Below, piece after piece: positions 38,113-62,637 of a stretch of 64,000 nt of DNA. Both the position numbers and the translations under genes were made by a program. The DNA is from Humidesulfovibrio mexicanus (GTDB lineage: Bacteria; Desulfobacterota; Desulfovibrionia; Desulfovibrionales; Desulfovibrionaceae), in NCBI RefSeq assembly GCF_900188225.1, contig NZ_FZOC01000002.1, forward strand, positions 306,310 to 370,309. Direction: 5' to 3'. Every line of letters starts with the position of its first letter. Within the stretch, counting starts at the first letter, position 1. The notes under the pieces were generated by a model. That model was not told the origin of the DNA. It did no database searches and saw only the letters and a list, made by a program, of their open reading frames with translations.

Positions 38113-38433
38113 CTAGGCCTCCTCTGTGCTGGGCGCCTCGGGCGCCTCGTCAAGACGGACGGTGACGAACTTGAACAGGCCGTCGGTGATGCGGATGTTG
38201 CGCTCCAGTTCCGCCACGGCGGCGCCGGGAGCGGTGTAGTCCAGGCGCACGTAATGTCCGCGGGTAAGCTTGCGCACGGGGTAGGCCAGGGTGCGCACGC
38301 CCCAGTCGTCGACGAGGCCGATCTTGCCTCCGTCGCGCTCGATGACGCCGGAAAGGTTGCCCAGGATCTCCTTGCGGTTCTCCTCGGTCAGCTCCGGACT
38401 CATGAGCACAAGAGTCTCGTAGTGATTCAGCAT
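38113..38433 (-). CDS. rpsF: 30S ribosomal protein S6
   Basis: The 106-residue protein begins LNHYETLVLMSPELTEE and has the GHYVRLDY beta strand typical of S6, with a short acidic tail. ATG at 38433 with AAAGGAGC upstream. It is the first gene of rpsF-rpsR-rplI-dnaB, behind its own TTGACA promoter. Confidence 0.97.
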   Translation of the reverse strand: MLNHYETLVLMSPELTEENRKEILGNLSGVIERDGGKIGLVDDWGVRTLAYPVRKLTRGHYVRLDYTAPGAAVAELERNIRITDGLFKFVTVRLDEAPEAPSTEEA

Positions 38434-38493: not shown

Positions 38494-38522
38494 CTCTTAC
38501 GCCAGGCTCCTGCTTCTGTCAA
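38494..38522 (-). promoter_or_regulatory. Sigma-70 promoter of the rpsF operon
   Basis: A perfect -35 TTGACA (38517-38522, minus sense) and TAAGAG (38494-38499) are 17 nt apart, about 60 nt upstream of the rpsF ATG. Confidence 0.6.
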
Positions 38523-38581
38523 GCCTTGCCGGGCCTGTCCTGGTCATCGGCCGTCTCACGGACGCGCCGCTCCGGAGCCGC

Positions 38582-38674
38582 TCAGCCCCGAAGCCCGAGG
38601 CTTGGCGGCACGAGCCGGAACGCCGCATAACCGGCGATGGCCACCACAAACACCAGCAGGATCGTGGTCAGCAT
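38582..38674 (-). CDS. 30-residue single-helix membrane peptide
   Basis: MLTTILLVFVVAIAGYAAFR is one hydrophobic helix, followed by LVPPSLGLRG and TGA. The ATG stands 3 nt after the UAG of the preceding candidate selenoprotein frame, with AAGGTG about 9 nt upstream, which suggests translational coupling. No family is recognised. The layout (helix, then FRLVP) echoes the SRLIP of its neighbour, so the two may be partners or distant duplicates. Confidence 0.5.
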   Translation of the reverse strand: MLTTILLVFVVAIAGYAAFRLVPPSLGLRG

Positions 38675-38677
38675 GGG

Positions 38678-38833
38678 CTATTGCACCTTGTCCTCGGGCC
38701 GTTTCTTGTTTGCATCCTTGGGCGGCGTCCAGCCGCACTGCTTCTTGGGGCCTCAGCCCACGCCGGGGATGAGCCGGGAAAGCACCACCCAGCCCACAAC
38801 GATGGCCACGAGAATCCAGATGTTGGCGTCCAT
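38678..38833 (-). CDS. Candidate 51-residue membrane selenoprotein (in-frame UGA at codon 27)
   Basis: The start has an excellent ribosome binding site, AAGGAGG-CCCC-ATG, 24 nt after purC. Residues 4-20 form one membrane helix (NIWILVAIVVGWVVLSR) followed by LIPGVG. Codon 27 is TGA (38753-38755). The same frame then runs 24 codons with genome-like GC-rich third positions, GPKKQCGWTPPKDANKKR onward, to TAG at 38678, 3 nt before the next ORF. A hairpin 16 nt after the TGA fits a bacterial SECIS. Read as Sec it is a small anchored protein with U27 and Cys33. The alternative is a 26-residue peptide or a nonsense-mutated Cys codon. Confidence 0.55.
38722..38736 (-). promoter_or_regulatory. Candidate bacterial SECIS hairpin
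   Basis: In the mRNA, GCGGC-UGGAC-GCCGC forms a perfect 5-bp stem with a 5-nt loop whose second base is G. The stem begins 16 nt after the UGA and the loop 21 nt after it, within the usual bacterial spacing (about 16-37 nt to the apical loop). Confidence 0.5.
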
Positions 38834-38857: not shown

Positions 38858-39766
38858 CTACACGGCCAGCTCGCGCCCGGTGAGCAGGCGGAAGGCTTCC
38901 AGGTACTTGGCGCGGGTCTGGTCGATGATGGATTGCGGGATCTTGGGCGCTGGGGGGCGCTTGTCGAACTTGATCTCCTCCAGCCAGTCGCGCAGGAACT
39001 GCTTGTCGAAGCTCTGTTGGCCCCGGCCGGGGGCGTAGTCGCTCATGGGCCAGAAGCGCGAGGAGTCCGGGGTCAGCACCTCGTCGATGAGGATGAGCTT
39101 CTCCTGGCCGCCGTTCTGTACGGTACCGAATTCGAACTTGGTGTCCGCGATGATGATGCCGCGCTTTTCGGCGTAGTCCCGGGCTTTGGAATAGATGCCC
39201 AGGGCCAGCTCCTGTGCCGTGTTGGCAAGAAGCGGCCCGGTGATGCGCATGGCCTCTTCCACGGAGATGTTTTCGTCGTGCGCGCCCAGTTCCGCCTTGG
39301 TGGAGGGGGTGAACAGCGGCTTTTCGAGCTTGTCGCTTTCGCGCAGCCCCTTGGGCAGGGCGTGTCCGCACACGCTGCCGCTTTTGAGGTAGTCTTTCCA
39401 GCCTGAGCCGGTGATGTAGCCGCGCACGATGCACTCTATGGCCAGCGGTTTGGCGCGCCTGACAAGCACGCTGCGGCCTTCCAGCATGGAGGCGTGCGGG
39501 GCGAGAACCTTGGGGAAGTCGCGTACATCGGTGGCAAGCAGATGATTTTCCACCAGGTCCTTGAACATGTCCATCCAGAACAGGGTGATCTGGTTGAGCA
39601 CAACGCCCTTGTGTGGGATGGGGTCGTCCATGATCACGTCGAAGGCGGAGATGCGGTCCGTGGTGACGATGAGCAGGCTGTCCGGCCCGGCCTCGTAGAT
39701 GTCGCGCACCTTGCCGCGGGAGAGGAGGGGCAGTTCCGTGATGTCGGTGGTGATGACGCTTTCCAT
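38858..39766 (-). CDS. purC: Phosphoribosylaminoimidazole-succinocarboxamide synthase
   Basis: The 302-residue purine enzyme ligates aspartate to CAIR using ATP. GKVRDIYEAG near residue 18, ECIVRGYITGSGWKDY near 113 and IIIADTKFEFG near 195 are SAICAR synthase signatures. The length matches the roughly 300-residue subgroup. ATG at 39766 with GGAG 7 nt upstream, 20 nt after hisD on the same strand. Confidence 0.96.
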   Translation of the reverse strand: MESVITTDITELPLLSRGKVRDIYEAGPDSLLIVTTDRISAFDVIMDDPIPHKGVVLNQITLFWMDMFKDLVENHLLATDVRDFPKVLAPHASMLEGRSVLVRRAKPLAIECIVRGYITGSGWKDYLKSGSVCGHALPKGLRESDKLEKPLFTPSTKAELGAHDENISVEEAMRITGPLLANTAQELALGIYSKARDYAEKRGIIIADTKFEFGTVQNGGQEKLILIDEVLTPDSSRFWPMSDYAPGRGQQSFDKQFLRDWLEEIKFDKRPPAPKIPQSIIDQTRAKYLEAFRLLTGRELAV

Positions 39767-41245: not shown

Positions 41246-42724
41246 CTAGAAGAAGTAGTTCAGGCCAACGCCGACCTTGTAGGCGTTGCCGCTGCTTCCG
41301 CTGGCGGCAATGTTGCCCGCGTTGGTAACGGCGCTGGCCCCCCAGGTGGCGGTGTCGAAGTGGGAGTTGATGTAGCCCAGGTACAGGTATGCTGTCAGCT
41401 CGTCGTAGATCTTGTAGCGGGAGTTCAGGTCCACTTCCCAGAGGGAATCCTTTTCGGTGAGAAAGCCCGCGTAGTTCACGCCGCGAAGGTTTACGGTGTT
41501 TTTCAGATAGTCTGCGCTGTTGGTGCCCTTGGCGTAGAGAATGTTCAGATCGTGGGAGAGCTTGTCCACGAAGGAGATGTTTTTAAGGGCGACGCCTGCG
41601 GCCCAGTAGCCCAGGGTGAAGAGCGTGTAGCCCGAAGGGTTGTTGATGGAGCCCGCGAGTTCCAGGCGTTCGCCAAAGAAGAAGGAGCCTGTTCCCACGC
41701 TCCAGTTCTGCGGCACGCCCACCACGGGCATTCGGCCGGAGCGGTCCGGATTTTGTCCGGATTCGCCGGAAGAATAGACGAAGTAGGCCTCGGGCGTCAT
41801 GTAGGAAAGGCCGGTGTAGTCCACGGCCAGATCGGCCATCCAGCCAGCGCGGCCGCCGTCCTTGGTGTTGTTGAAATAGTTGGTGTAGGTGGCCTTGCCG
41901 TAGTGGAAGTCAGCCATGACTTTAAGGGGCAGCTCTTCCGGGATCATGGTGAAGGACGCGCCGCCCCAGTAGCCGCGAACGCCTTCGCTGGTGGAGCTGT
42001 TGGGGCCGGCGAGGCCGAGCAGCGTGGCGGAGTTGAGGTTTGAATTGGTCCCGGCGGCCTGGGATCCGGCATACAGGAACATGCCGTAGGGCGTGATGTT
42101 CATGGTCTGGGTCTTGATGGGCAGCATGGCGAAGGCCGCGTCTGCCGAGGTGCCGGTGCCGTTAATGTTGGCGGTGGAGCCGAAGTTGTTGCTGTCGGCC
42201 GGGCGCACGTACCCGGCGACCAGGCTGACGGAGTCGGTAAGCGGGGTGCTGACCACGGCCGCAGCCACTTGGTCGTCCAGGATGGGGCTGCCGCCGCCGA
42301 AAGCCGCGGGCAGGGTCACCGTTTGAAAGCCTACCGAGATGTTGGTGGCGGTTTCCGGCCATTTGTATTCGATGTAGGCCTTGCGCAGCATGATGTTGCC
42401 GTTGCCTGCACCGTTTGCGCCGGTGGCGGTGCTGTTGGGGGTGCGTCCGGCGCTGATCTGGTAGAGACCAGCACCCCAGTTCTGCGTGCCGATCTGGGTG
42501 TCCAGAATGCCGCGCAGGTTTTCGTTGGCCGTGAAGGTGAAAGCCGTGCGCAGCTTTTCTTCTATGGAGAAGGCGTTTGACCGGGATGCGTTGAAGTCCC
42601 AGTTGGAGCGGCTCACCGCCTCAATCCACCAGTAGCCCCTGGCTTTGATATCAGCAGCCTGCGCAACCGAACAAAGCCCCAATGCCAGCAGGACCGCCGC
42701 AGCCAACGATGTCATCCGTTTCAT
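41246..42724 (-). CDS. Outer-membrane porin, Desulfovibrio type (copy 1)
   Basis: The 492-residue protein has a signal peptide ending SVAQA and a beta-barrel pattern ending in a terminal aromatic (GLNYFF), a BAM signal. It shares long matches with the next two genes, including YQISAGRTPN, MLRKAYIEYKWP and PAAFGGGSPILDDQV. ATG at 42724 with GAGGAG upstream. It is the most divergent of the three paralogues. Role: general or anion-selective diffusion pore. Confidence 0.88.
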   Translation of the reverse strand: MKRMTSLAAAVLLALGLCSVAQAADIKARGYWWIEAVSRSNWDFNASRSNAFSIEEKLRTAFTFTANENLRGILDTQIGTQNWGAGLYQISAGRTPNSTATGANGAGNGNIMLRKAYIEYKWPETATNISVGFQTVTLPAAFGGGSPILDDQVAAAVVSTPLTDSVSLVAGYVRPADSNNFGSTANINGTGTSADAAFAMLPIKTQTMNITPYGMFLYAGSQAAGTNSNLNSATLLGLAGPNSSTSEGVRGYWGGASFTMIPEELPLKVMADFHYGKATYTNYFNNTKDGGRAGWMADLAVDYTGLSYMTPEAYFVYSSGESGQNPDRSGRMPVVGVPQNWSVGTGSFFFGERLELAGSINNPSGYTLFTLGYWAAGVALKNISFVDKLSHDLNILYAKGTNSADYLKNTVNLRGVNYAGFLTEKDSLWEVDLNSRYKIYDELTAYLYLGYINSHFDTATWGASAVTNAGNIAASGSSGNAYKVGVGLNYFF

Positions 42725-42832
42725 GCAAAATTCTCCTCGCCACGAGATTTGAAACAGTCGCAATGTAAGTAAACACTCCTAACTTGAAACGTGTGGAAAA
42801 TCAAGGATGAAATGCAAATATGCTGAGGCAGC

Positions 42833-42898: not shown

Positions 42899-44365
42899 CT
42901 AGAAGGTGTACTTGAGGCCGAGGGCCACGCGGTACGCGTTCTTGGTCAGCATGTCGTCGTTGCCGTAGTTGGCGTTGACCTGGCGCCAGGTGTCCTTGTC
43001 GATGTCGGCGTTGATGTAGCCGAGGTCGAGGATCAGATCCAGACCCTGGTAGATCTTGTACTTGTTCTGCAGGTCGATCTCGAACAGGCTGTCCTTGTCG
43101 GTCAGCATCACGCCGTAGTTGCGGTTGACGGAGCGGGCGATGGCGTCGTGGTCGTTGGTGCCCTTCACGTACATCACGTTCACGGTGTGGCTGAAGTTGT
43201 CGAACAGCTTGATGTCCTTCAGGGCGAAGCCGGTGGCCCAGAAGCCCATGCTGTTGCGGGTGCCGCCGCCGTTGGAGCCGCCATTGGCGTTGGTGTTGTT
43301 GCCGCTGATCAGGTTGCGGTCGGAGAAGAAGAAGGAGTTGTTGATGGTCCAGCTCTGGGGGTTGCCCATCACCGGCATGCGGCCGTCCTTGTCGTCATTC
43401 TTGCCGTTGCCGGAGGTGTACACGAAGTACACTTCGGGGGTCATCATGGACAGGCCGGTGTAGTCCACGGCCAGGTCGAACAACCAGCCCTGGCGGCCAC
43501 CGTCGGTGGAATCGGGCAGGGTGTAGTTGCTGTAGGTGACCTTGCCGTAGTTGAAGTCGGCCATGACCTTGAAGGGCTCAAGGGCGGTCATGGTGAAGGC
43601 GACGCCGCCCCAGTAACCGCGGGCGCCCACGGAGGCGTTGGCGCCAAAGCTGTTGAAGCCGATGGTGGTGGCGGGGCCGGCATTGGTGCCAGCAGCCTGA
43701 CGGCCAGCGTACATGTACGCGGCAAACGGGGTGATGTTGAAGCCGGAGAAGTCGACCGGCACGGCGGCGAAGGCCACGTCACCCTGGGTGCCGTTGCCAG
43801 CAACGTTGGCGGTGGAGCCGAAGTTGTTGGCGTCGTAAGGACGGGCGTAACCGGCCAGCAGCTTCACGTTGTCGGTGATGGGGGTGCTCACCACGGCCGC
43901 GCCCACCTGGTCATCCAGAATGGCGCTGCCGCCGCCGAAGGCGGCAGGAAGCGCCACGGTCTGGAAGCCCACCAGGAAGTTCACTTTGGTGTCGGGCCAC
44001 TTGAAGTCGATGTAGCCCTTGCGCAGCATGATGTTGCCGTTGCCTGCGCTGTTGGAGCCGGTGGCGGTGTCATTGGGGGTGCGGCCGGCGCTGATCTGGT
44101 ACAGGCCATTGCCCCAGGAGTTGGAGCCGATCTGGGTCTCGAGGACGCCCTTCAGGTTCTCGTTGGCGATGAACTGGAAGGCGGTGCGGATCCGCTGCTC
44201 GATGTGGAAGCTCTTGTCCTTGTCCAGGGTCGTGAAGTTCATGGAATTGTTCCAGTACGAATCGATCTGGAACGCACCGGTGGCCTTGATCTCGGCCGCC
44301 TGGGCAAAGCCGGTGAAGCCCAGGACGAACAAGGAGGCCAATCCAAGCATCTTCATTTTTTTCAT
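42899..44365 (-). CDS. Outer-membrane porin, Desulfovibrio type (copy 2)
   Basis: The 488-residue porin has a signal peptide ending GFAQA and a C-terminal beta-strand ALGLKYTF. It shares the family blocks YQISAGRTPNDTATG, KGYIDFKWPDTKVNF and PAAFGGGSAILDDQV with copies 1 and 3. ATG at 44365 with GGAAGGATAAC upstream. Its own strong terminator and separate leader make it a single-gene unit, probably highly expressed. Confidence 0.88.
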   Translation of the reverse strand: MKKMKMLGLASLFVLGFTGFAQAAEIKATGAFQIDSYWNNSMNFTTLDKDKSFHIEQRIRTAFQFIANENLKGVLETQIGSNSWGNGLYQISAGRTPNDTATGSNSAGNGNIMLRKGYIDFKWPDTKVNFLVGFQTVALPAAFGGGSAILDDQVGAAVVSTPITDNVKLLAGYARPYDANNFGSTANVAGNGTQGDVAFAAVPVDFSGFNITPFAAYMYAGRQAAGTNAGPATTIGFNSFGANASVGARGYWGGVAFTMTALEPFKVMADFNYGKVTYSNYTLPDSTDGGRQGWLFDLAVDYTGLSMMTPEVYFVYTSGNGKNDDKDGRMPVMGNPQSWTINNSFFFSDRNLISGNNTNANGGSNGGGTRNSMGFWATGFALKDIKLFDNFSHTVNVMYVKGTNDHDAIARSVNRNYGVMLTDKDSLFEIDLQNKYKIYQGLDLILDLGYINADIDKDTWRQVNANYGNDDMLTKNAYRVALGLKYTF

Positions 44366-44469
44366 TGTTATCCTTCCCTCTTTTGCGGTTACGTAAACCA
44401 CCCTGACGCATGCTTGCAGAACAGGTCTATCCCAATGGTTCCATGGTTTGCAAGAGAAATATTGACTCG

Positions 44470-44504
44470 GGTTCAATTTTTTTTATCGTATCCTTTTTTG
44501 AACC
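44470..44504. repeat. Inverted repeat upstream of porin 2
   Basis: GGTTCAA (44470-44476) and TTGAACC (44498-44504) flank a 21-nt AT-rich spacer, about 105-140 nt upstream of the porin 2 ATG. It could be a regulator site. Confidence 0.4.
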
Positions 44505-61932: not shown

Positions 61933-62637
61933 ATGCCGAATTATAAGCCTATGCAGACCTATGTGGTGAACAAGCTGGACATGGAGGTGCATCCCTTCGC
62001 GGCCGCGCCGGAAAACCGCTTCGAGCAGGGGGTGGCCCTGCAGTACGGGGCCGACTTCAAGATTCGCTTCCGCAGGCAGGGCGAGCACAAGGACACGCTC
62101 GGCCTGCTGCAGCTGATCTTCCCCCAGACACAAATTTTCCAGCACACCCAGCCCCACGCCTGGAACGTGGACAAGCAGGCCCTGGGCCAGGAGACGGTCA
62201 CCATGGCCAAATGCCTCTATGGCAATGACGCCACCCTCATCGGCGCGCACTCCGCGCCCTACCAGGGGCAGCACATGCGCTCCCTTGGAACGGGGGAATG
62301 CTGGCTCATCGACACCCCGCGCGAGATAAGCGGCGCGTTCGCCAATGGCGTGTTTACCGGCCAGACCTCCACCAAGTTCGCCAACTACGTGGTGGAACTC
62401 TCCGGTGCCGATGGGCGGATCTTCAACCAGGGGGCCATCTGGGGCTACTCCGTGGTGCAGAACGGCCAGAACCTGGACGAGTTCGACTGGCTGGTCCAGC
62501 CGCCGAGGGAAGTGCGGTTACGAGACACCAATGAGCATCTGGACGCCATTGCGCGCTTTCTTGGGCTGGACCAGACCACGGAAGAAGCGCGCAAGGCCGC
62601 CAGGGCGCGCATCGCGGGCATGGTGGTCGGGGGGTGA
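61933..62637 (+). CDS. Unknown 234-residue protein (cluster gene 7)
   Basis: No family is recognised. The protein is polar with Gln- and aromatic-rich strands (LLQLIFPQTQIFQHTQPHAW, FANYVVELSGADGRIFNQG) and no signal peptide or membrane segment; the C-terminus is helical (TTEEARKAARARIAGMV). AAGGAG precedes the ATG. It is the last gene before the terminator at 62689. Confidence 0.7.
   Translation: MPNYKPMQTYVVNKLDMEVHPFAAAPENRFEQGVALQYGADFKIRFRRQGEHKDTLGLLQLIFPQTQIFQHTQPHAWNVDKQALGQETVTMAKCLYGNDATLIGAHSAPYQGQHMRSLGTGECWLIDTPREISGAFANGVFTGQTSTKFANYVVELSGADGRIFNQGAIWGYSVVQNGQNLDEFDWLVQPPREVRLRDTNEHLDAIARFLGLDQTTEEARKAARARIAGMVVGG

Follow-up and report, generated by a model that had tools for sequence, protein, structure and literature searches.

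The window, i.e., the whole 64,000-nucleotide stretch of DNA analyzed here, very probably contains a gene for a small single-pass membrane selenoprotein, in which selenocysteine (Sec) would be inserted at UGA codon 27. The gene is an ORF of 51 residues on the minus strand (38678–38833), and its product, translated from 38833 to 38678, is MDANIWILVAIVVGWVVLSRLIPGVG-U-GPKKQCGWTPPKDANKKRPEDKVQ. The start codon ATG (38833–38831) is preceded by a CCCC spacer and the ribosome binding site AAGGAGG (38844–38838). The in-frame TGA (38755–38753) is followed by 24 codons, 20 of which have G or C at the third position, and then by TAG (38680–38678), with Cys33 located six residues C-terminal to the TGA codon. 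The TAG is separated by CCC from the ATG (38674) of the next ORF. The neighbors on the same strand, purC upstream (38858–39766) and rpsF downstream (38113–38433), serve as context only; their names come from the original prediction and the conserved context. That prediction, which did not give the strand, had described a strong ribosome binding site, a membrane helix, TGA at codon 27, 24 further codons (20 of them G/C-ending) up to a TAG lying 3 nt before the next ORF, a Cys six residues past the TGA and a location between purC and rpsF, and each of these was found again in the sequence and its neighboring ORFs.

A scan of genome contigs with patterns from one protein yielded four near relatives, all of them with TGA. 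At the family level, 288 genomes were queried by a single sequence and by a 22-row profile, and with the profile a member was found in 95 genomes (E-values up to about 3 × 10−4), 94 of which were read as DNA, with G242 left out. A 40-row profile matched 170 out of 348 genomes at the order level (E-value ≤ 1 × 10−3) and, at the phylum level, 136 out of 395 evenly drawn genomes and 90 out of 245 genera (E-value ≤ 1 × 10−5). Some of the matches (e.g., to profile positions 1–28) span the helix only, and those fetched among them all have TGA. Members occur across the phylum, which makes the finding larger than originally claimed: the gene is present in about a third of the evenly sampled phylum genomes, with almost no Cys stand-in. 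Distant blastn and tblastn searches of plasmid records gave no match. No member was found at E-value ≤ 1 × 10−3 in genus g18 (G036–G114), which has apparently lost the gene, though many of its genomes have selA; thus, the use of Sec does not always require this gene.

The recoding site was compared in 192 distinct genes, i.e., all loci read except for duplicates, the Cys homologue L107 and loci L138–L140, with L097 represented by its second copy only. L138 and L140 were judged by eye to encode Cys-rich proteins of another kind, and L139 was doubtful. TGA occupies the site in all 192 genes, so the site is more than a chance occurrence; the terminal stops of the same genes are mixed (74 TAG, 61 TGA, and 57 TAA). 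The first reading of these genes took TGA as a residue and was repeated with all stops masked. Among the 195 distinct loci then scoring over 15 bits, 193 (including the doubtful L139) have TGA, none has TAA or TAG, and the remaining two are L107 and the unrelated L140. In the searches reading through all stops, neither TAA nor TAG alone occurred at the site among the matches listed that span it at E-value ≤ 1 × 10−5. The only homologue found with Cys at the Sec site is L107 (G028:C2, around 62365–62526), in which the frame is open. The genome of L107, G028, also has selA, and a genome of the same genus, G029, has TGA at the site.

The TGA of the window is followed by a SECIS-like hairpin, GCGGC-TGGAC-GCCGC (38722–38736, minus strand), which starts 16 nt after the TGA, has its loop 21 nt after it and carries G as the second loop base, in agreement with the 5-bp GC hairpin, 16 nt past the TGA and with a G within the first two loop bases, that had been predicted. 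Folded as a single sequence, the window hairpin has a minimum free energy (MFE) of −10.1 kcal/mol, compared to a mean of −12.54 kcal/mol for shuffled sequences, 171 out of 200 of which fold at least as well. Since this fold is not significant by itself, the case for the hairpin is a comparative one. Hairpins were scored by the bSECIS limits given in PMC13188914 (loop of 3–9, stem of 4–16, G in the first two loop bases, 16–37 nt from the UGA, and MFE ≤ −7.5), with the energy limit relaxed, by our own choice, to ≤ −5 kcal/mol for an unbroken stem-loop. By this measure, the family set has a hairpin in 87 out of 92 genes, the order set in 30 out of 40, and the phylum set in 50 out of 60 (167 out of 192 overall), and 25 genes miss the criterion. 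Dinucleotide shuffles give 15.1, 3.6, and 3.75 hairpins in the respective sets (about 22 overall), and synonymous resampling gives 20.9, 6.1, and 6.2.

The stem reads GCGGC/GCCGC in most CGW genes and GCTGC/GCAGC in many CSW genes. Compensatory changes are found in L039 (GTGGC/GCCAC) as well as in L096 and L129, in which the stem contains GAC/GTC and Gly is changed to Asp together with Pro to Ser. Non-standard pairs make up four out of 265 stem cells in the 53 CGW/CDW genes (two at pair 1, and one each at pairs 2 and 4). In the 50 CGW genes, Gly is encoded by GGC in 49 and the stem Pro by CCG in 48, while the codon after the stem Pro is CCC in 25, CCG in 11, CCT in 10, CCA in one and that of another residue in three. 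Ser is encoded by AGT in all 20 CSW genes, whereas AGT accounts for six of the 57 other Ser codons of the same genes. Synonymous codon choice is fixed within the hairpin and looser beyond it. In two FdhA genes of the same genome, the hairpin loop starts 23 nt after the UGA and has TGG at its apex, similar to the TGG at 21 nt here. The Rfam model SECIS_1 had no match in the genome, nor in any of 14 controls, which makes the former result uninformative.

The genome encodes selA, selB, selD, and a tRNA-Sec with a TCA anticodon. The selA and selB genes adjoin at G000:C2:370729–375481, with selA beginning 420 bases beyond the end of the window. In the same genome, selD has one in-frame TGA, and an in-frame TGA is also found in two out of the four FdhA genes above the cut-off. 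Within the family set, selA was found in 90 out of 95 gene-positive genomes versus 139 out of 193 others (Fisher test, p = 1.9 × 10−6), and in the phylum sample, in 127 out of 131 versus 220 out of 253 (p = 0.0016), counts that ignore relatedness, so that the p-values overstate the association. Nine gene-positive genomes gave no selA match: G162, G164, G168, G267 (67–82% complete), and G269 (96%) in the family set, and G415, G512, G557, and G636 in the phylum sample. The original candidate, a small membrane selenoprotein, is supported, and none of the three points by which it was to be judged refutes it: there are homologues with TGA (many) or Cys (L107) at position 27, there is conservation past the TGA, and selB and tRNA-Sec are present in the genome, alongside selA and selD.

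Past the TGA, the frame continues and the sequence is conserved at the protein level, including a Cys and a charged tail. Throughout the 192 genes, the part before Sec comprises 22–30 codons, and the tail 14–36 residues. For the best 17-residue segment upstream of Sec, the mean hydropathy has a median of 2.41 and a minimum of 1.59 across the genes. Lys and Arg together average 0.10 before Sec versus 6.57 after it, and are more numerous after it in every one of the 192 genes. According to the positive-inside rule, the positively charged side of a membrane helix is the cytoplasmic one, and the tail, with Lys and Arg following the helix, is therefore predicted to be cytoplasmic. Hydropathy and charge point to a topology of one helix, N-out/C-in, with Sec on the cytoplasmic side, close to where the helix leaves the membrane.

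The typical form of the protein is LPKLGIxG-U-GPxxxCSWQP, and further out the form NRWxLPKLGIxT-U-MSxSCxIGDR, followed by Lys, is found. Counting from Sec, the nearest downstream Cys stands at +5 in 47 genes, +6 in 78 and +7 in 46 (171 out of 192 at +5 to +7), and at +8 in six; it is elsewhere within 20 residues in nine genes, and six have none within 20. In two of these six, L250 and L258, the Cys comes after a second TGA. Each of these two loci has a pair of in-frame TGA codons ahead of its terminal stop, with the Cys directly after the second, and is a possible two-Sec form. In the divergent L170 to L173 (genus g33), the near Cys is gone and the C-terminal end is GGCGG plus one residue, which suggests that the Cys moved to the C-terminus.

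In the genus and in many relatives, the gene is flanked by purC and rpsF. Elsewhere, the neighbors vary, both in 17 loci with a different context and in another 40 from the phylum and order. Within about 4.5 kb in the latter 40, recurrent clusters are an EngB-like GTPase (seven), another large protein (six), and CcdA-like (five), GltX-like (four), and FmdB-like (three) proteins, with the EngB-, CcdA-, GltX-, and FmdB-like labels given by eye. A cluster found in 13 out of the 40 loci was set aside, as it seemed to merge unrelated regulators. The neighboring genes point to no function.

Were the TGA an ordinary stop, translation would yield a peptide of about 26–30 residues containing a single membrane helix, and what is conserved downstream would be non-coding or otherwise used. 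Gene finders would end the gene there, and the window hairpin by itself is not significant, but the absence of TAA and TAG from the site in 195 loci, the in-frame conservation downstream as a protein with Cys and a charged tail, and the open frame of L107 with its Cys make such a stop highly improbable. The nine gene-positive genomes lacking a selA match would fit a UGA read by another route, either as another amino acid or by leaky termination. Several of these genomes, however, are incomplete, and the retention of the SECIS-like hairpin, the whole Sec set in the genome, and Cys as the only other residue found at the site likewise speak against non-Sec readthrough, which has a very low probability. 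The ORF might also be a selenium-sensing leader that controls downstream genes (rpsF here) through UGA decoding, as in many relatives the rpsF group follows it directly; yet in many other lineages its neighbors are different, and the tail is conserved as a protein, making a leader very unlikely.

With the ORF read as a membrane selenoprotein gene, SelB would deliver Sec-tRNA-Sec (UCA anticodon) to UGA codon 27, guided by the hairpin after it, and translation would run 24 more codons to the TAG. The helix would be anchored N-out/C-in, thus placing Sec27 on its cytoplasmic side, a few residues away from the membrane; after it would come a short linker, Cys33, and a flexible charged tail. With a flexible Sec/Cys pair next to the cytoplasmic face of the membrane, the protein could work as a selenenylsulfide switch or relay electrons, as proposed for SELENOS (PMC10650576), or else hold a metal/selenium site. 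The putative role of the pair as a reversible selenenylsulfide that exchanges electrons with a partner in the membrane or with a small oxidant is given a chance slightly below even. Alternatively, within the same explanation, the Sec/Cys tail could handle metal or selenium/sulfur species and not act as a redox switch. Small Cys-rich membrane proteins exist, e.g., the FeoB-associated type, and a short flexible Sec/Cys tail on a helix is like them in form, L138 and L140 being of that sort by eye. On the other hand, one Sec with usually one near Cys provides few ligands, and no consistent metal-related neighbor was found. A metal or selenium role appears rather unlikely. It is unlikely that the pair has a putative role other than redox, metal, or selenium. 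Tentatively, and with some doubt, the family may be seen as a core membrane selenoprotein of the phylum that would form a minimal redox module of Sec and Cys on the cytoplasmic side of the membrane, a counterpart in form of SELENOK/SELENOS, duplicated in some lineages and with two Sec residues elsewhere (L250, L258).

The eukaryotic SELENOK and SELENOS are about twice the size of the new bacterial protein or more. According to PMC10650576, they have one helix near the N-terminus, a Gly-rich positively charged part, and Sec in the C-terminal region, which in SELENOS is disordered; a Cys-Sec selenylsulfide has been suggested for SELENOS. The new family is like them in having one helix near the N-terminus (by hydropathy) and Sec in the C-terminal part, whereas it differs in being bacterial, in having Sec close to the membrane, and in having a bacterial-type hairpin inside the coding region. 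The likeness is considered as one of form only, with no claim of common descent.

Searches of Pfam and NCBIfam with 14 members, including two of the second type, gave no match above the curated cut-off, only sub-threshold ones. Table 1 of PMC13188914 (2026), within the accessible part of that source, lists 119 prokaryotic selenoprotein families and subfamilies, none of which has this motif and form by description; shared with them are Sec at an in-frame UGA and a hairpin within the published bSECIS limits. The accessible parts of PMC1914089, PMC9312934, PMC5029168, and PMC1794560 contain nothing like the family, and literature searches of the main text of open-licence papers found no description of it, so far as that text was accessible. 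Based on these open-licence searches, the family appears to be absent from print. The deep-Sep survey of 20 genomes reported zero new selenoproteins in Salidesulfovibrio onnuriiensis IOR2 and Desulfomicrobium orale DSM 12838 (PMC12013277). Both of these cultured species seem to carry the gene (G228, two copies, L097; and G293, L201, respectively), with the identity of the genomes with the surveyed strains being inferred. The homology step of deep-Sep asks for either a known homologue with Sec or two or more with Cys (PMC12013277), and the new family hardly offers these. The gene has probably been overlooked because gene finders end it at the TGA, and it would be missing from the family libraries and from the accessible table of PMC13188914 because of its short length, its UGA at around codon 30 and the near absence of Cys homologues. 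Current methods lean on length, the place of the UGA, and Cys homologues, and the new family fails on these. If the reading is right, a selenoprotein gene of 90 out of 245 sampled phylum genera is absent from the family libraries and the table checked; the family would add a membrane type without thioredoxin fold to the prokaryotic selenoproteins and provide a small testable system for the role of Sec beside the membrane.

The ORF that follows the gene in the window (38519–38674, minus strand, read from 38674 to 38519) has a conserved TGA at codon 31 (38584–38582), followed by 20 codons and a terminal TGA. It is probably a derived tandem paralogue of the selenoprotein gene in which the near Cys was lost, and it is reasonably likely to be a selenoprotein as well. 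A similar second ORF is located directly after the first gene in eight out of the 14 loci of the genus (L013–L026). The tails of these ORFs include UMPRPPDVWETPDK and UAACPPEVRETSKK, and the near Cys is lost in most of the eight. The terminal stop is TGA in all eight, so stop usage gives no help in this case. Past the TGA at codon 31 lies a weak hairpin, CGTC-CGTGA-GACG (38552–38564, minus strand; −2.3 kcal/mol). At the matching place in the eight ORFs, the hairpin is strong in L014 (−11.0 kcal/mol), weak in six and not found in one. An apparent degraded second copy with extra stops is found in L015, and the Cys is kept in both tandem copies of L097 and L112. Another tandem arrangement is seen elsewhere in the window, where two similar ORFs (41246–42763 and 42899–44476, minus strand) look, by eye only, like outer-membrane porins.
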